64,000 nucleotides of DNA from contig JARGXX010000068.1 of the NCBI GenBank assembly GCA_030374765.1, forward strand, positions 4,898,001 to 4,962,000, given 5' to 3'. This DNA is from Agarophyton chilense (Eukaryota > Rhodophyta > Florideophyceae > Gracilariales > Gracilariaceae). Position numbers and translations under genes: made by a program. Below the pieces are notes generated by a model. The model saw nothing but the letters and a program-made list of their open reading frames with translations, had not been told where the DNA came from and made no database searches. Shown piece after piece: positions 14,274 through 64,000 of the stretch; position 1 is the stretch's first letter; each line of letters begins with the position of its first letter.

Positions 14274-14611
14274 ATATAATGTACCAGAGGTGAGCGCCGA
14301 CTCCAAGTAAAGGAGACAACATGGGCATCATGACTATACTGTTCCTCGCTTATTATTCCTTAACCGGAGATCCGGACGAGCTATAATAGATAGTCAGCCC
14401 CCAACCACTTCACGAGCCGTCTCGTACCTACGTTCCATCAACATTTTACAGTTGCACTGTTCACCCTCGCTGGCGAGTAGTGGCCTTACACCCCACTTCC
14501 AGATCGCTGGTGTTGTAGCTCTACCACCCCTTTTCCTTCGCCGCAAGCGACCCATCGGCAGTCCGAACGCTGTCGCAGGTGTCTGCTCTCTCCGTTAGAG
14601 CAGATACTACA

Positions 14612-29345: not shown

Positions 29346-30012
29346 TGTATTATCCACTCTAACGGAGAGAGCAGACACCTGCGATAGCGTTCGGACTGCC
29401 GATGGGTCGCTTGCGGCGAAGGAAAAGGGGTGGTAGAGCTACAACACCAGCGAGCTGGAAGTGGGGTGTAAGGCCACTACTCGCCAGCGAGAGTGAACAG
29501 TGCAACTGTAAAACGTTGATGGAATGTAGGTACGAGACGGCTCGTGAAGTGGTTGGGGGCTGACTATCTATTATAGCTCGTCCGGATCTCCGGTTAAGGA
29601 ATCCTAAGCGAGGAACAGAATAGTCATGATGCCCATGTTGTCTCCTTTACTTGGAGCCGGCGCTCACCTCTGGTACACTATATACTGTGTGCCAGGGTGA
29701 GTGCCCAAATAAAAATATAAATAATACCCAGTGGTCAGCCACTTAGCCAAACCACTGTATGGGTACGGTCCCTAATTGACGTCTAGATACAAAGGGTAGT
29801 AAAACCAGCCACGTGGATCGCCACTACATGCGCCATTGCAAGCCACTCCACTCGTGATACCACGTGTCCCAACAATGTACCCTGCCTCCTGGCATCCTAC
29901 ACGGTGTGCCGTTTCATATCATAATGCTGATGATATCACTCACTTATGAGTTCCAACCGCGACTTCGCGAAAAATCAGCTTATCGGATTCCCCGACATAG
30001 TAGAATACTACA
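29346..30012 (-). repeat. E1 3' LTR
   Basis: 667 bp, TGTATTATCC... to ...GAATACTACA as read on +. It matches 39631-40294 almost throughout. E1-family LTRs also occur at 9464, 10100 and 12710. Confidence 0.95.
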
Positions 30013-30025: not shown

Positions 30026-30180
30026 GAGCGCGAACCATGGGGGACCCAAGAAGCGTTTATACGCAGTCGGACCGGTGTTTCGGGTACTCATCGTCATCAC
30101 GAATTCCTCGCCGCCCGACCAACTCTTACAGTTCTCAACAGCATTCTGTTCCTCACCGCTCTTCAGCTTGATCTCTCGGG

Positions 30181-32505: not shown

Positions 32506-35500
32506 TTAGAAATGGGATGTGCCCATGAGCCCGACTATCGAGGAGTTGATCTCCCTGGGGAGTGGTAATCGCATGCGTCGATGATATCGCACGAGTTGCG
32601 AACGGGGGATATGAGCTATAGGTTCCCACGTATCCGCTTCCGGAGGAAAACCGTACCAACGGACTCGATACAGTAATTCTCTAGTATCTTCATGCTCGCC
32701 ATGTTCACATATGCGATCCATAACATATTCCTGGGCGTTTCCCAATGCTTTCGCTGTTGGCGCGAGACTCCTGTTAACAGGTTTGAAATGCCTTAGGGCT
32801 GACCCAAGCGTCTCTGTGTTAGCAGTCTCAGCGTCGCTAAGCGTTCGCTCGTCGACTAACTGTCGTACTGCCCGCAGGGGCAGTGTACTAATTCCTTGAG
32901 AACCTTTCTCATATAAAGAGCTATCCTGTTTTACAGGTTCCATAGAAGCGTACTTCTTGCTACTTCTCAATTCCATTCGTGGATGAACTTCCTTCGGTTT
33001 ATCCGATTCTGACCGCTGTTCGGTGGACGATAGTGCTTGCACCACGACAGGAGGCGATATCTGTTCTTCTTCCTTCCCACGAGGGATGGGAGCCGATATC
33101 GGCGGAACAGCGAGTGGCGCTTCACCTGACGGTTCAGCCTGAAGCGGCACCGGCGCGTTTTCGCGTGCACTCGTTTTCAAGTCCGTAGGGCCAACGTCCA
33201 AAACATCTTTCCTGCTTTCAGGTTCCATTTCTGTACTTACGGGTGTGCGCGTGCCACGGGGCATATCCCGATATTTCGGAAGCTGTCCGTGATTGGCGTA
33301 CGCAACCGCCGGCGGTGGGAGATCAGGATCTTTCTCCTCCGCTCGAGCCATTGGTGGTGGTTCACTCTCCCCAGAGTCACTTGGGCTTCTGTCTTGACGT
33401 TCCGTCGCACTTGCCTCCTTAGTTCTACCAGATACCTGGACTTCCACTTGCGGGTCAGGCGCGACTTCAACGCGATCGCGCGATACACGTTCAACTTCCT
33501 CACCTCTCTTGATGACCACTGTGTCTTCATCAAGGTCCACCACTTTGAAGGGTCCAGCCGCTATCGGCAACAACTTATGACGATATTCTTCCTGTTTGTC
33601 GGGTCTTTCGACTCGCACGAAGACGTGACCTCCTACTCGGATTGCCGGATTTCCTCTTCGCCTTCTGGCGTCATAGTTTCGCTTATAACGAGCTTGCGTC
33701 TTTGATAACTCCTTAGCGACTTCTTCCGCTCTGGCCTTCAGGTCATTCCTCCATTTCAGATGGTACTTAGCCGGGGTCAGCGCGTCCAATTCTGTCTCGT
33801 CGTCGAGCGCAACCGGTAAAGCCGGAGGGTTACGTGAGAGCACGAGGTCGAACGGTGCCGTCTTTGTAGAGGTATGCACTTGCGTATTGTACGCGTAGCA
33901 CAGAGTATCTGTAAACATGTCCCATTCTTTCGGGTGGTCCGCGATGTAGTGTCGTAATGCTGCTATCAGCGTGCGGTTGAAACGCTCCACCTGACCGTTG
34001 CATTGCGGATGATAGGTCTTGGTAAACACGTTTCGAATGCCCACAATGCGGCAAACATTCTGAAAGAACTTCGCAACGAATTGCTTCCCATTATCTGATA
34101 ACAGAACTTCTGGTGGTCCCTATAAAAATACCCAGTGTTTGATAAACGCCTGTGCGATTACGGTTGCGGTTATCCGCTTCAGCGGCACAGTCCACACTAG
34201 CTTCGAGAAGCGGTCGGTGATTACCAATAGGTAGCGATAACGTCGCCTTGAGCGAATCAATTCCCCTAGGATGTCGATACTGACGTATTGTAAAGGCGCC
34301 TTCCCCTGGAATAACGTCATCGGTTTCCGCTTCCTGCAAAGCTTCACGCGATTCTTCGCCCATGTTGTACACAACCTCACTGTAGCATGGTAGTCCATTG
34401 CCAAAGTAGGCCAGTAAAAATCTCTTCTTAGAGTCATGAACAACTTCGTTCCTCCTGCGTGACCAGACAGCCTGCTGTAGTGTGCCAGATGGAGTACTCG
34501 ACTCTTCAAGACGTGTGGAATCACGATTTGACCATGCTTTTCGACATGTCTTAACAGTATTCCTCGTGAATCGAGTGAAAAGGGGAGCTCCTCCCCCCCG
34601 TTAAGACGAGAGCGTTTCGACGCATAAAACGTATCGGCGTGTTGCTCATTGAGGAGCTCAGTGCACGAGATTCGCTCGAGTTGAACTGAAGGGTCAGTGT
34701 CTGCTAATGCAAGGAACGGGTCTGCATCCGAATAATCATCAAGGGTCTCTTGTTCCTCTTCTTCAAAAGATGGTGAATTGGTCTCCATGTAGAAGCAAGG
34801 TATCTCTTCATCGATTTCGCCTTGGGTTTCGCCCAGTGTTTTGAGTCGCGATAGCGCGTCAGCTTGGACATTGGCCAATCCCTTCTTATACCTCACTTCG
34901 AAATCCAATTCAGTAAGGCGTGAGCGCCATCGTGTGAGACGACCAGACGGGTCTGTAATGGACAATAACCATCGTAGAGACGAATGATCTGTGTTGACGG
35001 TAAAACGTTCTCCTTGGAGATACGGTCGCAATGTGGTTAGAGCCCAAACGACTGCAAGGCATTCCTTTTCTGATACTGAATACTTCTTCTCAGCTGCGTT
35101 CAGCGATCTTGAACAGTAACCAATGGGTATGCGTTCACCATCAGGATGTGTTGGAAAAAGGGCACACCCTACTTGGTACTCGCTAGAGTCGGTATCCATT
35201 GAGTCGAACGCTTCCACTTCAGCTTGTCTGAATTGTTCCAGCTGTACTGGTTGTCCTTTACGCAGCTTTGCGTTGAGCGGTGCCGCTATATGCGAGTATC
35301 GCGGCACGAATCGTCGGTAGAAGTTGAACAAGCCGAGGAAAGAACGCAATTGCTTCTGTGTCGACAGAGGTTGTACTTCGCGGAGAGCCGCTGTTTGTGC
35401 CTCTTGAATGGCAAGCTGTCCTGGCTTGATCACATGTCCTAAGTACCGGACGGTGCCAGCGAAGCATTCGCATTTATTGAACTTCAAGGTGATACCTGCG

Positions 35501-37221
35501 CTCTGTAGTGCTTTGAGGATCTTCTTGACATGCCGTAAATGGCTTTCCACCTCCTGGGAAAAGATGATCACATCGTCCAAATAGACTAAACAAGTCTTCC
35601 ACTTGTATCTTGAGAGCAGGATGTCCAGAGTACGCTGGAAAGAAGCCGGTGCATTCGTTAAGCCAAAGGGCATCCTTTTGAAACGGTAGAGACCGGCGTG
35701 ACACGCAAATGCGGTTTTATCTTGGTCTTCTTCCGCTACAGGCACCTGCCAATAGCCAGAGTTGGCGTCCAACGTGGTGAACACGTTCGCTTCTCCTAAG
35801 CTGTCAATACATTCGTCCATTCGAGGCAACGGGTATGTATTTCGAGCTGTAACTGCGTTCAGTTTTCGATAATCGATACAGAATCGTAAAGAACCATCAT
35901 TTTTTGGGACCAGCACCACTGGTGAGGCTCAAGCAGATTGAGCTGCTTCGATTACTTTTTCTTCCAGCATTTTTCTGACATTCTCCTCCTCGATTTGGCG
36001 AGTTCGCGGTCCCGCTCTGTAGGGTGGTTGGGAGATGGGTCGTGACCCTGGGACCAAATCAATGTGGTGTTCCGTAGCTGAGATCTCTCCTAGTTTTACA
36101 CTCCACATGGATGTATACTTCTTCAGCATAGACCTGATCTTCGTTCTGTAGTTTTCCGACACATGTGCTAAGTCTAGCTCATCGACCAGGCTCTCTGGAT
36201 CCTTTGCCGTTTGCAATTGATCTCCAGACGGAGTTTGCAGTTCTTCGTCTGTGTCACCGACATGGGTTAATCCCAATACTTCTGCAGTAGAAATATGAGT
36301 AGGGACCACCACTGTGGGATGAGGCAAAGCTGTTGCAACAACCTGATTCTTCGGTATCTGATAATCGTTATCGGTGAAGTTACTCACTAGTATCCAAAAG
36401 GGGCTACCAGGATCGCCCTGAACAATGCCGTTAGCGACTAGCAATCCACGGGATTCTTAAATCCGAGTATTCGGTTGAATTACCACGAGTCCGTGTCGTT
36501 CTGTTCTTACTTGAACCCAAGTTTGGGTTTGCGCCTTCAGCATGGCACTCTTCGCTACTCGAATCCTCGGCGAGGCCCGTCCTCGGGATTTCCCGTATTC
36601 CATAGATGGTGGAAGTGGAGGTGCTTCGGGGCAACGACGCATTGGCTTGCGAACAATTGGTACCATTGATCCATCATCTAGTTCCACAATTTTTCTTCTC
36701 GGGCGAATGGCTTCGACAAACTTGTCGCAATAACCACATCCCAGTACCACTGGTTCACCTAACGTCTTACAGACGATGAAGTCGACTAGGACTAAAAAGC
36801 GTCCCAAACGCACCACGAGTCGAACTGTTCCCAGTGTCTTCACAGCATTTTTGTTGGCATCCCGGATGTCCTGTAAAAGACCGTATCGAATACGTTCTAA
36901 GTCAGCAGGAGCGAGCTCCGATTCCCGTTTAAAATTCGGACCAGCACCTGGGTCCAGGATAGTCAGTCGGCGAGATAACAGATTCCTGTCAGAGCCGATG
37001 TCAGCATAGACCTTATAGTTTCTTTTAGACACTACCATGAGGTAACTTTCCCGTTTTGATGGACAAGTATAACGTCTCCCAGGACGATGTAACTCCCAGT
37101 CAAACTGTACTCGCTTTCCGTCCTGCGGATTGATTCCGTACGGCGGAAATTTCTGAGGCCTCAAGAGAATCTTGGGTTTCCAAGCGCGGGAGCAGGGAGG
37201 CGAGCTCTCCCTGTTCAGCAC
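32506..37221 (-). pseudogene. pol: E1 pol: protease, RT, RNase H, integrase, chromodomain
   Basis: One reading frame from about 37221 to 32506. Protease: NYKVYADIG then LDPGAGPN, where the catalytic DTG has become DPG. RT: PIGVLVPKNDGSLRFCIDYRK-type start, MPFGLTNAPASF and CLVYLDDVIIF. RNase H: TDSSEYQVGCALFP, YSVSEKECLAVVWAL, TDHSSLRWLL. Integrase: zinc module HYSRLSGHAGG..., core VSIDILGEL, SDNGKQF, CNGQVERFNRT. A GPF/Y region and Pro-rich linker follow, then a chromodomain at about 32735-32570 (ELLYRVRWYGFPPEADTWEP). Stops: TAA 36457, TGA 35929 (Trp in E2) and TAG 34120 (Tyr in E2). Pol lies in the -1 frame relative to gag. Confidence 0.92.
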
Positions 37222-37268
37222 TACGGGATCGACTAGTGCCGACCCCCTAGGGGCTCCCTCCCTTAGTT

Positions 37269-39418
37269 TTACGGTTGCACCGGCTGCTTCGCCTCAAAGG
37301 CGCCTCTTCCTACCGGGGTTCCGGGGTGTAACACTTCAGCATTCTGAGCAACCGGCTTGTCCGTCCGGCGCATTGGTGTCTGAGAAAACCAACTTTTGTC
37401 TTTCCAATACATGCCCGCCGGTACGCCGCTCCTTTCCTCTTCTGAGAGTGCTTCGTAATTCGTCATGATACGACTCAGATCCTTTGCAGGAAGCGTGCAT
37501 TCTGCACTCAAATGGTGTTTTCCATAACATGAATAACATATCAAACCGTCACGAAGGTTGGTCAACATCGGTTGTGAACGGTATGCCGTGCAAGTATCCA
37601 CCCATCCGTGTTTCCCGTTCTTAAAACCTCCTTGTGGTGGCACCGTGTAGAGACGGTACATAGGGCGACGGCCCTCCATAGCCATTAGGGCTTCCTCGTC
37701 CTGAGACTCCGAGTGTGGGAGATCCACTGTAGGTACAGAAGAGTCCGTATATTCCATTAAATGGACCGCCTCCTCATGCGAGTCACTCCCTTTGGGTGCC
37801 AACGACAAATCTCGTGAGTCAACTGGAGATTCCAGATGTAGCAGTTTGCTGCGCTGATTAACTCTGGCGGAGATCTTTCCCTTACCCATTGAGATTCCAA
37901 AAGCCACTGAACGACGGGGGCTACCACGCGCTCTGGCCGCGTCTCCCTCAGCTTTCGCAAACTGAACTAACTCCAAAAAGGAGACTCTTCCATGCTTCTC
38001 TTGATATTGAGCTACCAACGACTTGATGCTCGGGTCCAGCCCGTCGATGTACAAGGTAATCTTGTCCTCCGTCGAGTGGACGTTTCCACAGCGGACTGAA
38101 GCTTTTTTAAGCCTTGAGCTGTACTCAGCTTCGCCCTCCTCAGGCTTTTGGGTCACATCCCTTAGGTCCAGGATCGCCTGACGTATCGCGTTTGAAGTCG
38201 CGTAACTGCGCAGCAAATACTGCACCGCCTCTGGCCATGAGGTAACGCCGCCTTCATCGGCTGTAAATGATCCGCATACGGAACGATCTTGCTCTAAAGC
38301 AAACCCCTTCAGGAAGTGTTGTAAAGACACAAATGCCTGTGTTTCACTCATATCTAGAGTGTCTGCTTCGGCAACGAATCGAGTGAGAAACTCGATAACG
38401 AGAATGGGGGTTTTCCCATCAAATGTTAAATCAGTAAGGCCGATCTTCAATCGTTTGATGTGATCCTTCACCTTCGCGGTTTCGCGTCCTGAGCGCTTCT
38501 TGCTCTTCACCTTCAGACGGTACTACCTGTAATTCAGGACCTTCCGATAAAGCGGATTCGTGCACGGGAGCACCTTAAATCCTCTGTAAGGTGAGCCCTT
38601 TTTTCTCATTAACCACGAAGACGTGTTCTTCTTCCGAGATCGGGACTTTCGATGACCATCATCACTGTCGTCGTCATCTGACGTATCTGAATCATCAGAA
38701 TCACCAATACTGGAACTGAAGCCCTCCGTACTTGAAGATTCAACACTCGTATCAAGTGCGGACTTCCGCTTCTTACGTCGTGACTTCGACTTCTTCGAAC
38801 GAGCTTCCTCCAAAGGAGCTCCTTCCTCTTCCAGCACGACTGGTTTAGCAGCAGTCTGCGCATGAACTGCCGCCTCCAGGCGTTCTAAACGAGGGTTAAC
38901 TCGAGTGGAGACTTCCTCTACATCCACGGTAAATCCGGGTAGTGCATCGGGCGTATTCCCGTACCTCTCCCGTAGATGGTTCAAATCCTCACGTAGTGTT
39001 TTCACTGATGCAGAGACCTGCTTCCCATCGTCTTGACGAACGAGTGCTTGGTGCGCACTGCGTAATTGTTCGACGTCAGCGATAAGAGCAGCGATCTGCG
39101 ATTCCAAGGCAACCATGCGCACACGCAAAGCGCTTGACTCAGACTTGAGACGGCGCAATTCCCTGCGCAAATCATCCTCTTCTTGAGGTCCGACGACCTC
39201 AGGGTCAACTAAGGCTTATGTGGTGGCCGTGACTGCCACTTCCACAGGGGCCGGTATATCCGAAAGATCTCGTTCATCATTGACCGAGAGTGAGAGCGAC
39301 ATCGCTTGACGATACAGCCGCTCTCCGGCTTCAACAGATTAGGAGAGCCTCGGTTTCGGGGTGGTGCCGCAGGACCGGGGCGACCAGTACTCGACAGGCT
39401 TCGGGTCTTCGGCATCCT
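37269..39418 (-). pseudogene. gag: E1 gag
   Basis: N-terminus MPKTRSLSS at 39418 in one frame; from about 39200 a coiled-coil region (RRELRRLKSESSALRVRM) continues in another, then a Lys/Arg/Ser/Asp-rich segment. After a TAG at 38523, where E2 reads Tyr, comes the capsid-like core (LVIEFLTRFVAEADTL, WPEAVQYLLRSYATS, YSSRLKKASVRCGNV, LYIDGLDPSIKSLV). It ends in a Cys/His segment ICYSCYGKHHLSAEC that fits a zinc knuckle (CX2CX4HX4C). One frameshift and one nonsense codon make it inactive. Confidence 0.85.
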
Positions 39419-39610: not shown

Positions 39611-39628
39611 TTCTAAGTCGGGAGACCA
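39611..39628 (-). other. E1 primer-binding site
   Basis: Minus strand TGGTCTCCCGACTTAGAA, two bases after the 5' LTR. E2 has the identical 18 bases. The TGG start fits a tRNA 3' CCA end; I could not assign the tRNA. Confidence 0.85.
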
Positions 39629-48960: not shown

Positions 48961-50417
48961 TCATAAACGACCCAGCGTTGAGCCAAGATATTTGATCGAT
49001 GACGTGAACCTCTCGACGGATATGTAGCTAAGAAAGCCTACATCGATTAATCTGATCGAATCAGCTGCTCTTCCCGATTCAAAGCAAACGAAATTTTTGC
49101 CAAGGTGGACCATGTTAGTCCGACGAGACTCGTTTTGTCCAATCACCCACTGCGAAGAGCCTTCTGAGACTAGGTGGGTGATCGAAACGTCTAGTCTGAT
49201 GTCAGAAGTGGTGCGTAGGGTAACTGATCATAGAATCCTTCTTTTCGGGCTGGTTTGGTTCCCAGAGCCGTACTGCCAACGGTTGTGTCCTTTCAACGAG
49301 GGTCAAATCGGGTCCAACTGGGTATGGTTTGGAATCCCAAGTTTCGAACCGAGAACTTGCAACTTCACTTTGCCGATCGCCGAGTACGGCGCAGCGTCTT
49401 CAACGAGTGGCCCGAGCTTTTCTGGCATGGATCTCACGGAGTCTTTTGAATTTCAAAAGTTCCAGTGCTTGGTGCTGCCTATCTCTGGTTTGGGGGGAGA
49501 TAAAAACCAGTTTCCGGGACGTTCCCGTGGCCGCGCGTATGACTTCTCAAGTCGCAGGGTTAACAAACTCGTGGTTTTGGGCGGTGGTAACATAGAACTT
49601 TTTGAAGTGTAATCTTTTTAAGATGGAGCTTAACAAATTTTCTGAGGTATCTTGTGTGTTGGTCATCGTTCGCGTGAACTCGTATTCATCTCGAAGATTG
49701 GTTTCTGGGTTGCTATCCGTTAGCATAAGTGAACTTATCCGTCTTGACGGTCGTGAGTCGACCCGTGTAATTTCCACACGATGGTTGGGAGTACTGCAAA
49801 GCTTGGCGTGTTTTCCCGCGGCGTGTTTTGCATCTTCTCTTGATCCTTGTGTAACAACCTAATTTGTTCTTCGAAATTTGGGCTGAAATCTCTGAAAAAG
49901 GAGCAACTGATTTTACTTTCTGTAGCATTCTGGATGCACGTGAGTTCGACCGATCGAAATACTACGAAGTCGCGAAACGGAATTCATAAGCTATTGCTTG
50001 GGCTATACTCGATTACGAGAAGTTATGAGAAGAATAACTTCATGTAAAGATTTGGACAGAAGAAATTCAATTAAGAAGTAGTGTATTTAGTGTGCACTGT
50101 AAAGTGCCATCACCAAATGTTTTATTTGGTATTATTTAGATAGTTATGTAGTGGCACGCCACGTGTATGCCTTAATGTACATTACTTTCTTTGCCTTTTG
50201 GCACATTAAAGGGCGCAAGGCCCAGGTGAGGACGGCGGAGGCCAACCAACAACCAACGAACCGAAAAACACCATCTTGGTGAGTTCTAGAAATCCTAAAA
50301 TGTTTTACCACAAAGGGGCACCTATAGTATCAGTTCTTAACCGTTCTGAGCTATAGCTCTTGTTACGATGATTCCCTCTACTGTTGCGCGTTTACCACCC
50401 TTTTTTCTACAGCTGTC
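48961..50417. other. Probable copia 5' side, no gene recognised
   Basis: Contains a weak minus-strand frame at 48961-49146 that may be copia protease or gag, and a plus-strand frame at 49097-49612 with no motif. Copia 5' LTR and leader may lie here, but I could not match it to a second copy. Confidence 0.35.
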
Positions 50418-51303
50418 TGAAGTGCAATGCCTTTCAAGGGGGTTTCTTCCCAGGACTCAGAGATTTCGCTCGCTTGAGGACTAGCTTGGTCTATGACAAG
50501 TTATACCGCTATTGCGTGCCGACGGCCGGTTAGGACCGGGGGTACACGCTGGTGGAACACGTGGACTGCAAGGATCCCGACGCTCGAGTGCGAGGCGTGC
50601 CACATGTGGCCCGAAATTTTCCTAATGGTTAGTATTATTTAGTATTTTTTAGTATTTATGTAGCTACACTATCGCTATTTAGTGTCTATTTTTCGGGCGC
50701 GCGCCCACTGTCAGGGCAGCGCCCCACACTACTTAGGAGGTTTAGAACTGCTCCCCAGTAAACACCCTCTTGGGGGATCCCAAGGAGGGAGTCTTGGCTC
50801 TGAACTCTTCGCCTTCGGCGCGTCTTCACCGCATACTGCGTGAGAGCCCGTCGCATGTTACTTCATCCACCCCTCTGTCGACCAGAGTGCTACCACAACC
50901 GTGGATTCATATTTAATCGCCGACACTTGTCGTAGTCTCGCCCCTGTATAGGGTTTCGCCCCCGTTTACTCTTGTTTTCCTTTTTGGCTCTCGTGAGTGG
51001 CCGCCCCACTCACCCCGCTCGTCCATCTCATACGAGTGTTTCCTCGCTCCTTTTCCGACAATCGCCGTGGTACCGCTCCGCTTAGGATTGGTCACACCAC
51101 GGACTGTGCCGTGCTCATCTAAACACTTTAGGTATATCCCGCCGGATTGGCCTCGGTCTTACACCCGACTCCGTCGTGCCTTTCCAGAGTGGCTCTGTTT
51201 CTGTGCTCCGCTGGGACTCGTCTCCTCCGCCTGAGACGTGTCTCTCAAGAGAGGAAGATCCCGAACATCTTCGTGGTGTCTCCGCTCAAAGCGTTGTCCT
51301 ACA
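50418..51303 (+). repeat. E2 5' LTR
   Basis: 886 bp, TGAAGTGCAATGCC to GTTGTCCTACA. Direct repeat of 60648-61452 and of the solo LTR at 11439-12325. Confidence 0.93.
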
Positions 51304-51306
51304 AAC

Positions 51307-51324
51307 TGGTCTCCCGACTTAGAA
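51307..51324 (+). other. E2 primer-binding site
   Basis: TGGTCTCCCGACTTAGAA three bases after the LTR, identical to the E1 site. Confidence 0.85.
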
Positions 51325-51468: not shown

Positions 51469-53528
51469 ATGTCGTCCAAAGACCGTCCGAGGGCGCGGAG
51501 TCAAACCGGTGCACCGGAACCATCGCAACCATTCCGTATCCCTGTCCGATCACGGTCTCATACCGGTGGATCAACTGGCGTGCCAGGTGGAAGGACCTCG
51601 AGACCTCCTGTCTCTGATTCGACACCCCCAGGAAGTGGAGCAGGACCGGCGTCTGCCGCCGCCCAGATGCTCTTCCCTGCTAGGGATGTCACTTTCCATC
51701 CCAGCTTTGCAGCTGTGGAAGAGCAACTCCGCTCTACGCGGGAAGCTCAAGTCATCCTTGCAGAGGAGTTCGATTCCCTTCGCAAAAAGGTAAATGACAC
51801 TGATACGCAGGATTTTTCTGAGGACCTCCGTGTCCTCCGTGCGGATGTGAACTCGATTCTAGAGTCCCTTGGTGGACCCTCGGCCTTTGTCAAGGACGTC
51901 GCGGACAAGTTCTCGTGCGACCGAAGCCGTCTCGAGACGTTGGAACAAACCCTAATGTCGGGGGATGATCTGGCCGAGCCGGTTTCAGTATCCCACAAGG
52001 GAAATAAGGAAGAGAACCGCCAGGCTCGAAAGAAGCGAAGGAGCACGAATCCCGAACCGTCAGATTCCTCATCCTTGGAGTCCGACTTTTCCGATCATCG
52101 GTGGAAGTAGCTCGCCGTGAGCGTTCCTCACGCTCTAAGCGGTCAACAGCCACCCATGGTGTGATCCGCGCCCGCACGAAGGGAAGGAAGCACACAGGTT
52201 TGAAGGAGCTGAAACCGACCAATTCGCTCTTTAAGAAGCCCTTATCATACCGGTACTACCGTTTGGAGGAATTCTCTTTGGATCGTAGACCCCGTGGTAC
52301 GGAAAGAGTGAAGGACTGCATTAAGCGAATGCAGCTCTCACTACGAAACCAGTTGTTTTATGGAGAAGACCCAATATTGGTGTTGGATTTCTTGGCACGC
52401 TTTGTCGCGGAAGCTGACATCCTTGGAATGAACGAGGGACAGGCCTACATTGCCTTACCGTACTTCTTACGTGGGCTTGCAGAAGACCAGTATCACTCTG
52501 TCAGAGGTTCATCACGCGCCTCCGAAGGAGGGGTCACATGCTGGCCTGAAGCAGTTCAATACCTCCTGAGGTCGTATGCTACTAACTCCGCCATTCAGAA
52601 AGCTATACTAGCCCTGCGGGAAACTCGCCAACGTCAAGGCCAGTCGGAAACCGATTATTCGTCGCGCCTTAACAAGGCCTTCCACCGCTGTGGCAATTTT
52701 TACCCCGCTGATGAGCGTTGCACCATGTTTGTCGATGGTTTGGACCCGGCGATCCGGACTCTTGTTGCTCGACGTCGAGAAGATAGACCTGAAGCCACGT
52801 ATTTGGAACTAGTGCAGTTCGCTCGCGCAGAAGGTGAAGCCCTGCGCGCACACACTCCTGGATCCAGAGTTAGGTCCGCAAAAGCGTTGATATTACAACC
52901 GGGTACCGCGTCAGCTTCGATGATCGACGAACAGGACTCTCGAAGGGATTATGATAACGTGCAGCTAGCCCATAGCGACGTTCATTCCATCCCGACAACG
53001 GAGTTACCCTCAACCTTAGACGAGTCCCAATACGTGATTGAGGATGACACGCTACTCTATGCGGATAATGGTCGCGTTCGTGCGCCACGCGTCCCACACG
53101 AGAGTGGTAATGTCCGCTTTTCGCGTCCTGGTTGGAGAGATACCCGCCCCGCGGTGAATTTCAGCAAGCCTCGCCACCCAACACCGGCTTCTGGTCTGAT
53201 TTATCATCTCTGCTACAAACCAGGCCATACTTCTCCACAATGTGTGTTGTCTCTCCAAGAATGGGCACAAGTCGTAGTCAATTACGAGGCCCTATCCCCG
53301 GAGGACAAAGCAACTGTTCCAATTGCATCGTATATACGTGCTCGAACGGATGTTCCACGTCACGTGTCGCTTCCCCGAACTCGGGTGGTACCTGCACCGG
53401 AATCCCGTGTCACCGACGTGGTCGGTCACCCCACCGCTTCTGCGGTACCTTCTGGACCTGATGCCCAGGCGTTGCCCGCTCAACGCCCTGAGCAGGCGCC
53501 TACGGCGGAGCAGGCCCAGAAATACTAA
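51469..53528 (+). pseudogene. gag: E2 gag (one frameshift)
   Basis: ATG 51469 starts MSSKDRPRARSQTG, followed by a Pro/Ser-rich region and a coiled coil (EEQLRSTREAQVILAEEF). This frame ends at 52110. Homology to E1 continues in another frame from about 52101 (TKGRKHTGLKELKPTNSLF, LVLDFLARFVAEADILG, WPEAVQYLLRSYATN, YSSRLNKAFHRCGNF, MFVDGLDPAIRTLV) and ends with YHLCYKPGHTSPQC, a zinc-knuckle-like CX3HX4C that has lost its first Cys. A single indel near 52100 therefore separates two otherwise open halves. Confidence 0.85.
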
Positions 53529-53653: not shown

Positions 53654-56600
53654 GAACACTTTAGTGTTCTGCGTCGTCCGTGGAAACGTGTCTCCCATAC
53701 CCGATACCCGGATAGAGTTCTGGTGATGGCCAAAAAAAACTACAAGGTCTATGCTGACCTTGGCCTTTCACCCCAGTTTATGGTGCGACACCTTACCGCC
53801 TTAGACACCGGTGCCGGTCCGAACTTTGTCGTGGAGGAAGTGTTACCGCCTGCTTTTCATTCTAGGATCCGCCGCGACCAAGTCCCGGAGGTCGCTGACG
53901 CGAACAACAACCCATTAGATACGGTGGGTTTCATAGAATTGGTAGTCCGCGTTGGCACTCGCATGGTGAAACTCGACTTCGTCCTATGTCGGAAACTAGC
54001 CGCCCCAGTCATCTTGGGTTGCGAATTTTGCGACCGCTTCGTCGAAGCGATCTTCCCCCGCCAACGGCGTGTCGAGATGGAGGATGGATCGTCCACTCCG
54101 ATCGTTCGTCGTCTGCTTAGGCGTGACACGAAGAAGCATGTCCCGCTACCGGCAGCACAGGAACCTGGACCGGATAACCCTGAATCTAATAAGCTCCGCG
54201 TCGCAGCGTCGTTGTGCGTCCCGCCTGAGTCCCAAAAGATGGTGAAAGTAACCTCCCGTCAACACGGTCTCCGGGTCTTTCAACCATTGTCGTCACCGTA
54301 TGACAGGCACATCCTCGCAATTGCGAATTGAATCGTCTATGTGGAGCCAAACCAACCGTTTCACGTGCTGATCGCCAATCTAGGCACTGTACCCCAGTAT
54401 CTGGTGAAGAACCAAGTGATAGGGTCCGTCATGCCGCACCCCATCGCTATGGTGCCGACAAAGCTGACCGCAGCTGACGTTCTCGGACTCGTTCACTCTA
54501 AGGAGGGGGACAGGCCGGAACCCGTTTCATCGCCGGTACCCGGGGTTCAACCTGTAACATCAGGGACGCAACCCGTTTCAACGAGTGGTGACCGCCCCGA
54601 TCCAGTCCAAGAACTCGAGGACCTGGATCTCAGCCACGTCCCGGAGTCATACCGCCATCGATTGCGAGAACTTTTAAGGGACTTCACCACTATGTGGGAC
54701 GGCTCCCTTGGTGAGATTGCCACTACGGAACACCGGATTGATTTGCTACCGGACACCAGACCCATCTCTCAGCACTCATACCGTGCCGGATCCCCCGCAA
54801 GTGCGGAGGAAAGGGCACAAATGGATAAAATGCTTCGAGCAGGAGTCATTGAACCGGCTCAGTCGCCGTGGGCTTCTCCAGTAGTACTGGATCCAAAGCA
54901 GGATGGTTCCTGGAGGTTTTGCTTCGACTACCGTCGGTTGAATGCCGTCACCGTCAAGGACGTGTATCCAATCCCAAGAATGGACGAGTACATTGACTCG
55001 CTGGGCACCGCTGCCGTCTTTACAACCCTGGACGCCAATTGGGGATACTGGCAAGTTCCGGTAAGGAAGAAAGACCAGGATAAAACCGCTTTCGCGTGTC
55101 ACTCCGGTCTCTACCGTTTCAAACGGATGCCTTTTGGTCTTACCAACGCCCCCGCTACTTTCCAGCGAGCCATCGACATCCTATTGGCCCGCTTCAAATG
55201 GTGTACCTGCCTGGTCTACCTGGATGACATAATCGTCTTCTCAGATAATCTGGACAAACATCTCACGCATGTGAGGGATATCATGACCACGCTACGAGAT
55301 GCGGGTGTCACTCTCAAGTTGAAGAAATGTGACTTCTTCACGGACACCGTGAAGTATCTCGGCCATGTTATCCGTCCAGGACGTGTTACAATCGAGGAGA
55401 CTCGTGTTAAGTCACTCAAAGAGGCTAAAGAACCGCGGACGCAAACCGAGCTTCTTTCCTTTCTGGGACTCGCAAACGTCTACCGACGATTCATCCCGCA
55501 CTTTGCGGTCAAAGCTGCACCGTTAAAAGGGATTTTGCGGAAAGGCCAACCACCAAAACTGGACCCCTTAACCCCCGTTCAAACGGAATCTTTCAACTCT
55601 CTTAAGGATTCTGTTGTCTCCGCCCCGATCCTCTCGTTGCCCAAGCCTGGAAGGCCCTTCACCGTAGATATGGACGCCAGCGACTACCAAGTAGGTTTTG
55701 CACTGTTTCAAACTGCACCCAATGGGGAAAGACGCCCCGTAGGGTACTGGTCCCGATCGCTCAAGGTCCACGAGAAGAATTACTCCGTCTCGGAGAAGGA
55801 ATGCCTTGCAGTAGTGTGGGCATTACAAACGTTGCGCTCCTATCTCATGGGTAATCATTTCACCGTTTTTACGGACCACGCATCACTTCAATGGCTACTC
55901 TCCATCTCGGAGCCTTCAGGCCCCTTGATGCGTTGGCGTCTAGCGGAATTTTTCTTTGACGTGCAGTACCGAAAAGGATCGTGCAACACCCAAGCCGATT
56001 CTCTCTTCCGCCTGGTCACTACTGGCGAAGCATTACTCGTGAAAGACGATGAAATACCCTGCTTTGCAGTGAATGGCGACGACGCTACCATCGAGGACGA
56101 GGAACGAGACACGGACTCTTCAGAATCCGGTTCCGAATTGGACGACTTTCTTCTCTCGGAAGATTCCGAGAAACCCTTACCAGGGAACTTCGTGCCTATT
56201 ACTCCAGAGGAGATGATACGGGAGCAATTCGCTGACCCGTTCTGCGCGAATGTCCGCGCTCAACTCAATGGAGGAGGTACTCTCCCCTTTCAGGTGAATG
56301 ACGCCGGATACCTTGTACGGACCGTCGGATCGCACCCACAAATCGTGGCACCACATAACCCCCAGTCGAGAGTCTTGCGGTTGTCGCACTACTCCAAACA
56401 GAGTGGCCACGTCGGGGGACGGAAACTTTACCTCACCCTACGCCGAAATTTCTACTGGCCTGCCATGGCAGTAAACTGCTACGCAACGGCGCCGTTTTGT
56501 ACCGATTGCGCTCGGAACCGTGTCAAGCTCCGCCGTCACGCGACCAAGTTGAAGCTGTTTCCAGCTCGCGCTCCATTGGAGTTTGTGACCATCGATATAC

Positions 56601-58531
56601 TCGGTCCCTTCCTTACCACTAAGCGGAATTACAAGTTCTTACTCGTAATTACGGATCGCTTCTCAAAGCTGGTCCGGACCGTACCGTTACGGAAGATCTC
56701 CGCTCTGAGCGTGGCTCAAGCCTTCGTCCTACCCTGGGTCTTCGTCTACGGTCCACCCGTCAACCTCCTCTCCGATAACGGGAGACAGTTCGCCTCTCGT
56801 TTCTTCGAGAATGTGTGTCGCATCTTGGTCATTAAGAACCTGTTCACGACCACTTACCACCTCCAAACTAATGGGCAGGCCGAACGGTTCAACCGGACAT
56901 TACTTGCGACACTCCGTTCTTACGTTGCAGACCACCCCAAAGATTGGAACTTCTTCACTGATGCGCTCACCTTTGCGTACAATACGCAGGTGCACAAGAC
57001 AACTGGATTAACGCCCTTCGAGCTGGTAATGTTCCGTACACCACCGCCCGTGGCGCTGGAACCACAGCCCACGCTGGATACCTTTCCGTCACCGACTGCT
57101 TACCGCGAAGCGTGGAAAACTTGGCTCACGAAGCTCGTTCCTGCCGCACGGCGTTCAATGGGCCGAGCCCAGGCCGCTTACAAGCGTGACTTTGATACCA
57201 AAGCCCCTCGCTCGCCGCGACGTCTCGCCCCCGACGGTTATGTATTCATGCGTAAGGAGTATTGGAACCCAGAGAAGGAGAAACGCCACAAGCTGTCACC
57301 CGTTTCCGACGGCCCCTTTCGGGTTATTTCGGTGGCTCCCGACACTGTCGTTGTTGAACTCGCTGGTAATCACGAACGCATCTCCCGCGATCGCGTGGTA
57401 TCGGCTCCTCCGCCGTTAAAATCCCAACCTACTGGTGTGACTGCTCCCGTTGAAACGGATTCATCTACCCCCTTACCCCAGGTCCACCCGCGTCCCTACG
57501 CCTTACCACACCCATCTCGGGGTTTGTCTGACCTTCCGCTACCCGCGGCGCCCAACCCGCAAGGAATCGTGTCGCGCATTCGGCGCTCCCCCCCGGTCCA
57601 CCTGACAGACAGCAACCCCGGTGCATCGTCTATGGAGGGGGAGGCGCCCGACAGCCGTTGTAATCCGGTCGCTACCGTCGCTGGAAACGCCGCACCGTCG
57701 CGTGTCATTCTTCGCCCATCAGGGGTGCCTGATACCGACGTCCTGCACGACTCGACGCAGCCGCTATCCAAACCTCGGAACGCAGCTGCGGATAACGCCA
57801 CCAACACTCGCCGAGGTGTCACCACACGTGCAACACGGGATGCAAATGCGCTCGACGCACCGCAGCCCGATACAGTACGAGTAGAAGACGCACCGCCAAG
57901 TACCCCGCACAGGGAGGCGGATACATCCACGGCGCCGACGCCGGACAGCCAGCCATTGGAACCCTCACGTGACTACACGGAACTTCGCCGTGGGACAGAG
58001 AGGTGCGACAATGCGCCACCGCCCCAGCGAATCTCACCGCCGAAGCGAGCTTCACCACGACGATTAGCGGAACGACCACCCGGGTTACCCGCTGGTGTGG
58101 GCCCTCCAACCGGAGTGGGAAGCGCCGAAACAAGCCCGGCACTTGGGGAAAATGAACCGCCGAAGTCGGGTCGACATTCTACTCAGCCGAAGGCTGCCTT
58201 GCGCGCTACACGGTCCGACCGAAGCGAAGCTGCCCAACGCGTGATCAATTCGGTATCCCCTGGCTCAGGACGGGTACCACCCGGAAATAGCGACACCGTC
58301 ATACGGGATAGCCGGGAAGTGTACCGACAATAGTTCGTGGTCGGACGCATTTTGGAGCACTCCTACCACCCAGAGGGGTATATCCAATACTTGGTCCGTT
58401 GGTACGGGTACGCCCCCGAATGGGATTCAGACGAACCGATAGAGCACCTACCTCGGTCAAAGGTGGTACAGTATCATCGTCGTACCGTCACGGCTTTGCC
58501 GGCTACCATAGACCGAGACCAAGTGGGATAA
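53654..58531 (+). pseudogene. pol: E2 pol: protease, RT, RNase H, integrase, chromodomain
   Basis: Frame -1 relative to gag, as in E1. Protease: NYKVYADLG, LTALDTGAGPN with intact DTG, LGCEFCDRFVEAI. RT: FCFDYRRLNAVTV, MPFGLTNAPATF, CLVYLDDIIVF. RNase H: TVDMDASDYQVGFALF, FTDHASLQWLL. Integrase: HYSKQSGHVGG with FCTDCARN, VTIDILGPF, LLSDNGRQF, NGQAERFNRT, so the DDE set is present. GPF motif SDGPFRV, then a long Pro/Thr-rich linker. Chromodomain at 58337-58531 (YLVRWYGYAPEWDSDEP), in which Ser replaces the second conserved Trp. Stops: TGA at 54329 between protease and RT and TAG at 58331 before the chromodomain. Confidence 0.92.
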
Positions 58532-58743: not shown

Positions 58744-60408
58744 TCAGTTGGAAGAACCCGGATTACTGTGCGCGCCAGCCGAATCGCTAGCGGAGTTAAT
58801 CCCGCCGGCCAGGCGTGCCACGAGGGCGTCTCTCATCGTACCGATGTCGCCGCTCGCCGCTTGCGCGTTCAGTCCGACACCCCGAAAGAACTGGGAGATC
58901 ACGGCCGCCTCTGGGCGTATGGGAAACTCGATAACTTCCGGTTCATCCGGCAACGCCGCCGCCACTGGATCGATGACCGCACCTGCGTGAGTCGCTCCCT
59001 GCGCCGGCTGCGCCGTAGTATCGGCACCATTGGGGTCTCCCACGTCTTCCATGACCTCGTCGCCACGGTATTCGCCCTCCTCCTCCGGGACATCATCACC
59101 ACCATAGGCGTAGTAGAAGTCATCCGAGTTGACAAACCCCACGTGGTGCCCGTATGGTATGCCTCGCGGAGCCATCCGGAGTGCCTCCGCCTCCGCCTCG
59201 GAGATCTCTCGCTGCTCCCACGGGTTAACGAAGATGAAATCTCCAGCCAACGGCGTGCGATGCCCCGGAGACCGATCAGCCCCACCGGCTTCTTGACCAC
59301 GGCCGCTCTGCCGGACAGGCACGACAGCCCAGTCGACACGCCCAATGATGTCGATGAGCTTTTGAGCTTCATCAGCGTTATTGACACCTCCAAGAGGGAT
59401 TTGAAGGTCCAGCTGCCGGATGTAACCACGCAAACGCGGAGGAAGATACCACAGTCGACCCTGGTCGTAGGCTTCCCACAAGATGTACGCCGCGGCGCGG
59501 ACTGCCCATTCGGTTAGGACCACGGACCATAAGCCGGAGTGCCGATCCTCGATGAGGTACGAGCCCAGATAGGAGATTACTGGAGGCAACTCCACGTAAC
59601 ATCCTCGGCACACCTCGACGGAGGACCACCACTCAGGCAGGGGAACGTATCGCCCGAACTGATAGAAGGGACTAATCCGGTTTATCTCCTTGTTCTGATA
59701 AGGGACAAGGAACCCAAAGCGGGATCTGCCCCGACGCTCCTCGCGGATGAAGTTCTGTAACCACCGATATCGGGACTCACGACGAAGGTGACGGAAATCG
59801 GCATGAATGATCGGACGGACCGAGCAGATCGCTTCTTGACGCGCTCGCGATTGACCGCGCCATGCGTAAGTTTCCAACTCCACAAGGCGGTCACAATAGT
59901 TGATCTCACCCTGAGTCCGGTACATCCGTAGGTCGAAGCCGAATTCGTCGGGGATGGGGTATTGGAAGTTCGCCCGGCTGATCTGTGAGTAACCGATGCG
60001 GACGTATATACAATGCGCTTCTTCCGCCGACTCGCGCCTTCGCCGCAGAATCGCGTGAATGGGAACCGCCACACGGCGTCGCCAGTCCCACAAAGTGGTG
60101 ATCAAAGCCGGCAGCTCGCCCGGGAGACGCGCATTGCCATCAGCATACGCAACCACGAGTTCTTCGTCGAAGACCGCTGTCGGATGGAACCACAGAGCTC
60201 TCCGGAAAATCGCCGCATGTTGACGCCGGTTTAACCCGACGAGTTCGTCATAAGTGGGCCAGGTGTCCTCCGCAGGAGTGATGTGGCTTGAAGCTTCAGC
60301 GGGACCCCGGGATCGGCTCGGCACGGTTGACGAGGCACTCCCCCGCGGAAGGGGAGCCAAATGGAAACCGGAGAAGTAACCACGGCGGGGATTGTTACCA
60401 CCGTTCAT
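58744..60408 (-). CDS. Antisense ORF of E2 (aORF-2), intact, unknown family
   Basis: 554 codons without interruption, ATG 60408 to TGA 58744, on the strand opposite to gag-pol and between chromodomain and 3' LTR. Begins MNGGNNPRRGYFSG. Conserved with E1 and E3: WFHPTAVFDEELV; IPDEFGFD followed by YRTQGEINYCDRL; RPIIHADFRHLRRE; RSRFGFLVPYQNKEINRI; FGRYVPLPEWW; CRGCYVELPPVISYLGS; SGLWSVVLTEW; LWEAYDQGRLWYLPPRLRG; RQLDLQIPLGG and DIIGRVDW; then GDFIFVNPWE and ISEAEAEALR; acidic tail. Rich in Arg, Trp and Tyr; no signal peptide, membrane segment or metal-binding motif seen. I know no matching family. It stays open although gag and pol of this element are broken, which suggests recent activity or separate constraint. 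Transcription would have to start in or near the 3' LTR. Confidence 0.85.
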   Translation of the reverse strand: MNGGNNPRRGYFSGFHLAPLPRGSASSTVPSRSRGPAEASSHITPAEDTWPTYDELVGLNRRQHAAIFRRALWFHPTAVFDEELVVAYADGNARLPGELPALITTLWDWRRRVAVPIHAILRRRRESAEEAHCIYVRIGYSQISRANFQYPIPDEFGFDLRMYRTQGEINYCDRLVELETYAWRGQSRARQEAICSVRPIIHADFRHLRRESRYRWLQNFIREERRGRSRFGFLVPYQNKEINRISPFYQFGRYVPLPEWWSSVEVCRGCYVELPPVISYLGSYLIEDRHSGLWSVVLTEWAVRAAAYILWEAYDQGRLWYLPPRLRGYIRQLDLQIPLGGVNNADEAQKLIDIIGRVDWAVVPVRQSGRGQEAGGADRSPGHRTPLAGDFIFVNPWEQREISEAEAEALRMAPRGIPYGHHVGFVNSDDFYYAYGGDDVPEEEGEYRGDEVMEDVGDPNGADTTAQPAQGATHAGAVIDPVAAALPDEPEVIEFPIRPEAAVISQFFRGVGLNAQAASGDIGTMRDALVARLAGGINSASDSAGAHSNPGSSN

Positions 60409-60634
60409 CGGGAGTACTGGTCGCCGAGGTATCGGGGTGTGTTCGCTGGAAGTTGGCGTACGATGCGGAAGAACGCTCGAAGTTCGAGGAGTGGTTACCG
60501 CGTTGGTGCGTTTGTCGTTCGGTTGTGCAGCTCTGCCTTAGACAGTCGAGTGGTCGCTGGACGTGTTACGCGGCTCGCTTTTATGCCGGTTGGACTGTTG
60601 CCTCCCCGTCATGTCGACGGCGTGTTCGTCACCT

Positions 60635-60647
60635 AAGGAGGGGGATA
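60635..60647 (+). other. E2 polypurine tract
   Basis: AAGGAGGGGGATA immediately before the 3' LTR, similar to the E1 tract. Confidence 0.85.
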
Positions 60648-61452
60648 TGAAGGACAATGCCCTTCAAGGGGGTTTCTTCGCAGGACTTAGAGGTTTCGCT
60701 CGCTTGAGGACTAGCTTGGTCTATGACAAGCGATACCGCTATTGAGTGCCGACGGCCGGTTAGGACCGGAAGTGCACACTCGTGGAAGACGTGGACTGCA
60801 CGGATCCCGACGCTCGAGTGCGAGGCGTGCCACACGTCGCCCGGATTCTACCTAATGGTTAGTATTATTTAGTATTTTTTAGTATTTATGTAGCTACGCT
60901 ATCGCTATTTAGTTTCTATTTTTCGGGCGCGCGCCAACTGTCAGGGGCTGCGCCCCACACTACTTAGGAGGTTGAGCACTGCTCCCCAGTAAACAACCTT
61001 TTGGGAGAGACCAAGGAGGAAGTCCTGGCTCTGAACTTTTTCCCTTCGGCGCGTCTTCACCGCATGCTGCGTGAGTGCCCGTCGCACGTTAGTTCATCCA
61101 CCCCTCTGTCGACCAGAGTGCTACCACAACCGTGGGTTCATATTTAATCGCCGACACTTGTCGTAGTCTCGCCCTTGTATAGGGTTTCGCCCCCGTTTAC
61201 TCTTGTTTTCTTTTTTGGCTCTCGTGAGTGGCCGCCCCACTCACCCCGCTCGTCCATCTCATACGAGTGTTTCCTCAATCCTTTTCCGACAATCGCCGTG
61301 GTACCGCTCCGCTTAGGATTGGTCACACCCCGGACTTTGCCGTGCTCATCTAAACACTTTAGGTATATCCCGCCGGATTGGCCTCGGTCTTACATCCGAA
61401 TCCGTCGCCCCTTTCCAGAGTAGCTCTGTTTCTGTGCTCCGCTGGGACTCAT
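60648..61452 (+). repeat. E2 3' LTR, interrupted
   Basis: Starts TGAAGGACAATGCC and follows the 5' LTR up to GCTGGGACTC, where E3 begins. Confidence 0.92.
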
Positions 61453-62359
61453 TGTGGAGCAAAATCCGGCGACGGGAAGTGCTCTCAAGGTGTTCGAAGC
61501 CTTGCTCCCTGGGGGAGGCAGACTCAGAGACAGAGCCCTCCGTTCCACCCGTAGTGTGGGGTGTAACTCCCACGGGGGATTCCGGCAGTACCGACGGAGG
61601 TGAGGGGTAGAAACCGTGGATCGGGAATGGGTATCCCAAAGAATGGGGGAAAATCCGGCGAAGAGGAAAAACGGGGCGAGGGTCGGGCACTAACAGGCAC
61701 CGGACCCGAGAACCAGAAAAGGGGCGAAACAACAAAAGAAACCCAATACAGGGGCGAAAACCTGTCCTCGAAAGGAAACACAAAAAGCACGCAACAAGTA
61801 AGCAGAACCCCCACGGGGTATCGTGCACGCAGGTAGTCTGAGCGGTTCCAAGGGGGTGGTTGCACGGAACCCAAACGTGGGCACTCTCCAAGTGGAGTCG
61901 TGTCCCTACGCAGGCGTTGCTAACCAGAGCCCGTTCCGGGTTGTAAGGCCGAAACGATGGCGACGAAGAACCTCTAAAGGTATCGAAGACCAACCTTGGT
62001 TGTCATTTACTCTGAGCTCGGACTGTCAGATCTCGCCTCCCTAAGTAGGGCCCACTAACTAAACTCTACAGTAGTGCACACCTGCTCACGGCCATACACG
62101 TGGAGATCCCACTGCCAGGGCCCAAAAATCCAACGTTCTAACAAATATCCAAAATTCGGTGCCAAAATTAAGCCACGTGTATCACGGGGCCAATACAACC
62201 ATGGGCCATCCGAATTATCCCTTATAGGCGAAATATAACCAGAAAACAGTGCCACCTCAGCACACCATAGACGGGATCATAATCATAACCCTCGGAGGGT
62301 TCAATCCTCATTCTATGAGTTGCATCTTCAAGTATCCCCTAACTGGGCGTTGCTCTACA
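61453..62359 (-). repeat. E3 3' LTR
   Basis: 907 bp on +, TGTGGAGC to GCTCTACA; the ends are inverted repeats with one mismatch. Next to it the minus strand has a polypurine tract (GAGGAGGGGGAGA). The 5 bp before it are CTCAT, the expected target duplication. No second copy is in the window, so the limits rest on ends and tract only. Confidence 0.7.
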
Positions 62360-62373
62360 TCTCCCCCTCCTCA
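62360..62373 (-). other. E3 polypurine tract
   Basis: Minus strand GAGGAGGGGGAGA, close to the E2 tract AAGGAGGGGGATA and at the same place. Confidence 0.65.
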
Positions 62374-62569
62374 AGACGAGGAAGAACATTCCGAGCCGCG
62401 GGTGTCTAACTTCCCGATCACTATACATACTAATCTCCCAATGGGGTCCTTCACCACTTCTGAGGATCGCCACAAAACCGGCACATCGGTACAACTTTCT
62501 TCTACTCCTCCGACTTTCGGCGATACGCAACTTCTCGCAGCAGCGGTTTCGACTAGCCCTCTCAAGGGA

Positions 62570-64000
62570 ATGAACCCATAGGTCATCATTCCACTCTCGG
62601 GGCCATCGGCCTCCGCGCCGGCGGACAACGAAGCTCCCCAGCAGGGTGGATATTTCTCCGGTTTGGATGCGGCTCCGTCAGGTACCGAACCTTCCGCCTC
62701 GGCGGTCAACCGACATCCTCAGGAGGATTTGGACATCACCGCGGTGGCGTGGAACTCCGCTCATGCGATGCTCTTGGTAGCAAACTCCAGAGGTTGGATC
62801 TCAAACGAATCCTTTCGAAGGTGGAGTCCCCTTACCGATCCGGTGATATATTCCCGCGCTCCGTGGTTCCATCCGACAGCGGTTCGCGACGATGAACTCA
62901 TCGACTCCTACGTGGAGGACGGCTTATTGCCGGGTGGCCTACCTGTTGAGGTTGTACGTTCTCCCGATTGGAGGGCGCGGGTAGCCATAGAGCCTCAGTA
63001 TCTATACCGCAGTCGCGGGGAGTCCCTGGACAAGGCGCGCGCAGCGATGGCGGCTCTGGCCTACCAGCGATTGGAGAGGTCACGCTTTGACCATCTGGTT
63101 CCCCCGGAGTACGGGTTCGATGTCGCCTATTACCGCACGTACGGTGAGGTCTCCTACGGGGATAACCTGGCAGCGTTTCCCGAAGCCGAGTTCTGCGGAC
63201 CGGGTTTTCCTCTCCGAGAAGATATGCTCCAATGGAGTCGTCCCATCCTTCGGGCTGAATTCAGGTACCTTCAGCGGCAGTTTACCCAATATGGGTTCGA
63301 TCGACGCGTGCGCTTCGAGCGCCGCTCGCGCTCCCGTTTCGGGTGCCTTGTTCCGTATCCTCACGTGGAACTGGAGCGTATCCGTAACACGGCGAAGGTT
63401 GGGCGATTCGTGCCCCTTCCAGCTTGGTGGAGTAAGGTCGAGGTCCCCCGAGGGTGCTTTCCTGAACTGCTCCCATGTATCTACTATATCGGGTCTCGTT
63501 TGATGCACGACCCGAACTCGGGATACTGGGCCCTCGTTGCAGCCGAGTGGGCAGCCCACGTAGCGGCGCACCTCCTCTGGGATGCTCATGACCATTTCCG
63601 TATCTGGTATATTCCTCCGATGCTACGGACCATCATGCGTCAGATCGACCTTGTCCCAGCGTTTGGTTCGGCCAGCAACGTGCAGGACCTGTATCCAATC
63701 TTGGACGTGATCGACAACACCCAATGGGATCGAGTTCTAGTGGCAAATCAGCCCGCAGGGGAAGGATCCGCGCGAGACAAGTCTCCTGGCCGGTACGATC
63801 CGGGCTCCGGTAACTGGGTCTATTACAATCCCTTCGAAGGGGTTCGCATCAGCGCGGCGCAAGCACGGGCGCTGATGGACTCGCTTCGACCGATGCCGGT
63901 GGGACTCCCGACGGGGTTCATTTATACCGACGATTACGAGTACGAGCCTCCAGTAGACCTGGACGATCCAGCGTTGGATAACGAAGTGCCAGCTCCTAGT
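62570..64000 (+). pseudogene. Antisense ORF of E3 (aORF-3), partial at window end
   Basis: Frame from ATG 62570 (MNP) meets TAG at codon 4 (62579) and is then open for 473 codons to the window end. E2 starts MNGG at the same place, so the early stop looks like a point mutation; an ATG at 62768 could allow a shorter product. Shared motifs: GGYFSGLDAAP, APWFHPTAVRDDEL, PPEYGFDVAYYRTYGE, RPILRAEFRYLQRQ, RSRFGCLVPYPHVELERI, VGRFVPLPAWW, PRGCFPELLP, SGYWALVAAEW, LLWDAHDHFRIWYIPPMLR, RQIDLVPAFGS, then GNWVYYNPFEGVRIS and LPTGFIYTDDYEYE. By alignment with E2 about 100 residues are missing at the end. Function unknown. Confidence 0.8.

Follow-up and report, generated by a model that had tools for sequence, protein, structure and literature searches.

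Chromodomain-bearing Ty3/gypsy elements of a red alga carry, in antisense orientation between pol and the 3' LTR, a protein-coding gene (here the aORF) that is conserved specifically in its own reading frame and is linked to both pol and the LTR. The copies from which we started lie in a window of 64,000 nucleotides, the whole stretch of DNA analysed, and belong to four element families, E0 to E3 (Table 1). An earlier note on this DNA had supposed an algal host with chromodomain elements, and both suppositions were right. Contig C39 of the genome carries a set of phycobilisome genes, which points to a red alga, and the phycocyanin chains encoded there have their best PDB match in 2bv8, an entry from Gracilaria chilensis. 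A PF00385 chromodomain is present in E1, E2 and E3 and, for E0, in the copy at locus L026, so that all four families carry one. E2 shows the organization of a Ty3/gypsy element: two LTRs, a gag-like ORF (in which a Pfam scan found no match), pol and the chromodomain.

Table 1. Features of the four elements in the window.
Feature	Position	Strand	Remarks
E2 aORF	58744..60612	-	623 codons including stop; this copy has nonsense at codon 25
Polypurine tract of E2	60635..60647	+	Between aORF start codon and 3' LTR; named by position and composition
3' LTR of E2	60648..61450	+	Interrupted by the E3 insertion; presumed site of the antisense promoter
5' LTR of E2	50417..51303	+	93.2% identity to the 3' LTR across 803 bp
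Primer-binding-site-like stretch of E2	51307..51324	+	18 letters identical to those of E1; named by position
gag-like ORF of E2	52101..53528	+	Named by position and similarity among elements
pol of E2 (RT, RNase H, integrase)	54341..58333	+	Ends at an in-frame nonsense codon
Chromodomain of E2	58334..58528	+	In the pol frame, past the nonsense codon; PF00385, 1.4e-7
E1 aORF	30037..32266	+	Broken: in-frame stop, tandem duplication, further stops
3' LTR of E1	29342..30012	-	E1 element on the minus strand
gag-like and pol ORFs of E1, with chromodomain	32506..38510	-	
E3 aORF	62441..64000	+	Runs about 300 nt beyond the window; nonsense at codons 47 and 575
3' LTR of E3	61446..62363	-	99.0% identity to the partner LTR outside the window
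E0 aORF	24238..26367	+	Remote homolog; a convergent chromodomain remnant follows

All four window copies of the aORF are broken, and the long ORFs listed in the earlier note had to be redrawn to different degrees. Its 554-aa minus-strand frame opposite E2 pol (58744-60408) is open as described, but the gene starts upstream, the noted start being a later ATG below nonsense codon 25. The ORFs given for E3 (from 62570) and E1 (30181-32266) do mark homologous genes, although both begin earlier and neither is intact: E3 has its two nonsense codons, and in E1 an in-frame stop at 30169 is joined by additional stops and by a 403-bp tandem duplication (30563-30967 and 30966-31370; copies 99.3% identical), apparently recent, that shifts the frame. 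The E0 stretch was correctly delimited as a single frame, of 710 codons, but is not open, having in-frame stops at 24583 and 24694. Elsewhere in the genome, matched stretches without a stop were found for the E1, E2 and E3 aORFs; for E0, the query itself, a 555-aa stretch from the window, is the only such case among the matches listed. At L026 (positions 300-1000) a repeat of about 405 bp also lies in the region upstream of the aORF; it has at least about 40 matches in the genome and occurs in both orientations relative to its neighbour.

The proteins of E1, E2 and E3 are clear homologs, sharing 34-38% identity across 518-536 aligned codons (E2-E3 38%, E2-E1 and E3-E1 34% each). A tblastn search with the E2 aORF recovered E1 in pieces of 38.5% and 27% identity and E3 at 38%, and profile comparison among the three gave 100% probability. 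The E0 aORF is more distant: tblastn detected no similarity to E1-E3, and comparison with single-family profiles yielded probabilities of 38%, 0.5% and 6%. Against a profile built from the other families together with homologs from databases, however, it aligned over 203 columns at 17% identity with a score of 63 and 92.5% probability, compared with 17.8 when E0 was reversed and no more than 24.7 among 30 shuffles of the columns. By this profile comparison only, the E0 aORF is a remote homolog over part of the core. The earlier note's four-member family with ordered short motifs accordingly stands for E1-E3; E0 does not show the motifs as such and belongs only remotely. Over about 600 residues of pol, identities are 61% (E2-E3), 53% (E2-E1) and 54% (E3-E1), which makes E2 and E3 the closest pair for pol and aORF alike and shows that the aORF evolves faster than pol.

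These genes are abundant. In the 79.8-Mb assembly there are at least 78 matches to the E2 aORF, at least 78 to E0, at least 86 to E3 and at least 150 to E1. The 86 listed for E3 are 93-97% identical to the query, and 51 of them have no stop in the matched stretch. Searches of protein databases found 16 homologs; two are labelled with an organism, and both come from Gracilariopsis chorda. The ends of one record, P0015, resemble translated sequencing adapters, and its source may therefore be a library of assembled reads.

The position of the gene is equally consistent. Among fetched loci, a convergent pol end was found in 19 of 20 for E2, 20 of 20 for E3 and 10 of 10 for E0, and an LTR lies on the aORF start side in all 20 E2 and all 20 E3 loci, one of which (L009, E2) has only a 58-bp LTR match. 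Among the matches listed, the E2 integrase is downstream and convergent within 12 kb at 54 of 78 E2 aORF places, with a spacing of 1828-1903 nt in 51 of the 54 and another arrangement at 1 place; the E3 RT is convergent downstream at 50 of 86 E3 aORF places and otherwise arranged at 2. The pol lists behind these counts comprise 150 matches each, and an aORF place with no pol match listed was not counted as lacking pol.

At the other end, the gene begins almost at the LTR, in keeping with the earlier description of E1-E3 as carrying ORFs opposite pol beside the 3' LTR. The aligned start ATGs, at 60612 (E2, minus strand), 30037 (E1, plus) and 62441 (E3, plus), are separated from the edge of the LTR by 35, 24 and 77 nt, respectively. 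This ATG is conserved in 17 of 17 E2, 18 of 19 E3 and 4 of 4 E1 copies, counts that leave out indel-bearing copies (3 E2, 1 E3). The 400 nt upstream are free of ATGs in 12 of the 17 E2 copies. In E3, 18 of 19 copies have an upstream ATG at a distance of 124-126 nt from the start and one copy has it at 14 nt, and in E1 it lies at 91 nt in all four, such that a leader extending further would contain upstream ATGs. One E2 and one E3 copy were inspected for a TATA-like box upstream of the aORF, and neither showed one. The upstream ATGs and the missing box both count against the expression model favoured below. Because a gap of 24-77 nt leaves little room outside the LTR, the antisense promoter is most likely inside it.

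The E3 copy of the window sits inside the 3' LTR of E2, spans to about position 4969831 on contig C68 of the genome (loci L021/L022) and is missing the integrase region of its pol. Among the matches listed, the 50 E3 places with a linked RT have an RT-aORF gap of 3768-3918 nt in 39 cases; in the remaining 11, the window copy included, the gap is 2012-2521 nt. An integrase-less class of E3 thus seems to recur genome-wide, the loss itself having been read in the window copy only. The matched aORF stretch is stop-free in 9 of the 11 short-gap and 22 of the 39 long-gap places, small numbers judged by eye in which the window copy's own stops fall outside the matched stretch. The aORF is not the part that these derivatives have dropped.

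Two further features of the window concern the LTRs. The 18-base primer-binding-like stretch beside the 5' LTR is identical in E1 (39611-39628) and E2, which suggests that both may share one tRNA primer. In addition, LTRs of E1 and E2 type occur as isolated copies and as inverted fragments at 10100-10766, 11438-12325, 12709-13087 and 14269-14611, and are likely to be solo LTRs and rearranged remnants.

Both frame structure and substitution patterns identify the aORF as protein-coding. In three representatives its frame is free of stops, and each of the five other frames has 10-32. Between families, the BLOSUM score per residue is 1.45-1.82 in the aORF frame and 0.41-0.85 in the best other frame, the mirror frame, which has 36-47 stops in these between-family pairs. 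Within families we separated singleton variants, which mostly arose after insertion, from shared variants, which record the lineage of moving elements, in 17 of 20 E2 copies and 19 of 20 E3 copies (3 and 1 dropped for indels), the two families sampled. For E2, singletons comprise 319 nonsynonymous and 147 synonymous changes (dN/dS 0.85) and shared variants 65 and 55 (dN/dS 0.46; Fisher p 0.005). For E3 the figures are 148 and 84 (0.70) against 20 and 20 (0.40), a difference that is not significant alone (p 0.11); pooled, the two families give p 0.0013. The same test on the E2 pol tail, in 18 copies, returned 1.01 and 0.89, so the low aORF value is not a product of the method. Shared-variant dN/dS in the mirror frame (0.63 in E2, 0.39 in E3) resembles that of the aORF because their third positions coincide, and this frame can be told from the aORF only by its having stops and being less similar between families; the remaining four frames give 1.04-2.01. 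The earlier note had proposed that dN/dS near 1 between intact copies, together with a lack of antisense RNA in any data, would refute its reading; singletons do come nearer to 1, and shared variants lie well below it.

The product has about 600 residues. From the N-terminus, its predicted layout runs from a disordered region through a compact core (about 380 aa) and a second disordered part, a linker, to a short tail that is helical. Structure prediction renders the core as one confident domain (pLDDT 89.8, pTM 0.90), in which conserved Arg, Trp, Tyr and acidic residues abound. That no domain had been recognized by eye is borne out: there is no significant match to Pfam, PHROG or PDB, the few hits at E 0.2-1 lying below any cut-off, and no strong match to an unrelated host or viral family was found. 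PF04195, the domain of plant antisense ORFs, is absent from 12 of 12 family members at E up to 10 and from 4 of 4 proteins of this genome at E up to 5; a genome-wide search for it also gave no matches, but gave none in control genomes either and so carries no weight. Hydropathy analysis (19-residue window, Kyte-Doolittle above 1.6) showed no transmembrane-like stretch in 22 proteins except one, an E2 copy read beyond its usual stop (1.74). One group of homologs has, in tandem before the helical tail, a SUMO-interacting-like patch and a psi-K-x-E site. This tandem, spotted after the fact, is present in P0010-P0014, the five members of the group that reach the C-terminus, and in none of six window-genome proteins examined.

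We tentatively favour a reading of the aORF that we regard as plausible, if somewhat short of probable: a selected accessory gene of red-algal chromodomain Ty3/gypsy elements, expressed from an antisense promoter in the LTR, whose product is a nuclear regulator of element chromatin or transcription. Transcription would begin within the 3' LTR and proceed toward pol, yielding an mRNA separate from the genomic RNA. The protein would then act in the nucleus, an expectation drawn mainly by analogy with HBZ and Grande gene23, and might regulate the chromatin or transcription of the element, much as HBZ does for HTLV-1, for example by countering host silencing. The SUMO-like tandem of one homolog group is a hint in the direction of such an anti-silencing regulator. 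Nuclear products and antisense promoters in LTRs both have precedents, which have been reviewed (PMC7264820); among those described are a nuclear Grande gene23 product and an antisense promoter in the HTLV 3' LTR (PMC7264820), and HBZ is described as nuclear (PMC11963269). A bolder version, which we consider unlikely, makes the protein an undescribed class of retroelement nuclear antagonist with a new fold and bidirectional LTR drive, spread over red-algal chromodomain elements, that would keep the element active via the host SUMO/chromatin machinery; it would be needed in cis or prefer to act in cis, because integrase-less E3 derivatives retain it.

The main rival to a nuclear regulator is a particle-associated accessory factor, such as a Gag partner, a nucleic-acid chaperone, or a pre-integration or nuclear-import factor, with no part in regulating transcription. 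We find this doubtful but deserving of serious attention, since the high copy number of the aORF, its tight linkage to gag-pol and a compact core rich in conserved Arg, Trp, Tyr and acidic residues would all suit such a factor, and import of the pre-integration complex is among the roles raised for ORFs of this kind (PMC7264820). Antisense placement, however, splits expression of the gene from the genomic RNA that encodes Gag and Pol, and is a better fit to a regulator.

It is improbable that the elements took up a host gene and carry it along as a passenger, or that they make use of a family of host genes. Gene capture by LTR elements is documented (PMC11963269), but here the linked matches stand convergent with pol and at a fixed distance from it, E2 and E3 are the closest pair in both genes, and protein searches (8000 candidates scored in two of the three) revealed no unrelated host homolog. 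Even less probable is that the antisense RNA, rather than a protein, matters, with convergent transcription producing double-stranded RNA that limits copy number. The layout is indeed convergent, the ends of pol and aORF in E2 being about 200 nt apart, and non-coding antisense RNAs are described in other elements (PMC7264820); a pure RNA role is nonetheless disfavoured because conservation is frame-specific, and it would leave unexplained both why one frame is conserved across families only 34-38% identical and why shared-variant dN/dS is 0.40-0.46. An envelope-like or membrane-acting protein is very improbable: env-like ORFs are among the sense extra ORFs described between pol and the 3' LTR (PMC7264820), and transmembrane segments would be expected of such a protein, whereas the aORF is antisense, 21 of 22 of its proteins lack a transmembrane-like stretch, and its core is predicted as one globular domain.

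Whichever role applies, the red-algal aORF is a new system in which to ask why retrotransposons retain backward genes. With a start codon so close to the LTR, the gene yields a sharp prediction, an antisense promoter within the LTR, and the presence of several families in one genome, E3 with at least 86 matches, makes expression and function directly testable. Antisense genes of LTR elements are described mainly from flowering plants, one fungal group and some retroviruses (PMC7264820, PMC11963269). Another group of hosts now joins these, with a protein for which no kinship to the plant domain was detected and whose core is predicted with confidence and has no PDB match; this suggests that genes of this kind arose independently.

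One close likeness is to the aORFs of plant Tat elements (Grande gene23, RIRE2 and Retand ORF4 with PF04195), to which the earlier note had drawn a parallel. In those elements an antisense ORF in the interval from pol to the 3' LTR is described as established, occurring in most copies of several families and conserved at the protein level (PMC7264820, PMC11963269). Comparable features are found here: the antisense position between pol and the 3' LTR in E2 and E3 (in E0 the pol side was seen), presence in many copies, with at least 78-150 matches per query, and conservation, with a shared-variant dN/dS of 0.40-0.46 in E2 and E3. The parallel therefore holds for the arrangement, with no relation detected between the proteins. 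In Retand, 97% of the clusters studied are reported to have antisense ORFs bearing the TRP28 domain PF04195 (PMC11963269), whereas none of 12 red-algal members has it; Retand is described as a non-chromovirus, whereas the red-algal carriers have a chromodomain; and the Grande promoter is described upstream of gene23, whereas the red-algal start is only 24-77 nt from the LTR.

HTLV-1 HBZ, too, is an antisense gene, and for both it and the aORF transcription would be expected to begin in the 3' LTR. HBZ belongs to the bZIP proteins and has about 200 aa; the red-algal protein has about 600 aa and no significant Pfam match, bZIP included. Outside plants, a close case is that of the Boty elements, which reportedly carry an antisense gene, brtn (Zhao et al. 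2011). Compared by description only, brtn likewise occupies the interval from pol to the 3' LTR in antisense orientation. Boty of Botrytis and Sclerotinia is reported to have antisense ORFs there (PMC7264820), and the fungal retrotransposon BcGypsy1 is described with an antisense extra gene in that position (PMC8365987). Among the literature matches listed, none was a red-algal case. The earlier suggestion of a new family or a parallel case is supported on both counts: the arrangement, antisense between pol and the 3' LTR, was already known from Tat and Boty, and what look new are the protein family, the host group, the chromodomain carriers and a start codon set directly against the LTR.
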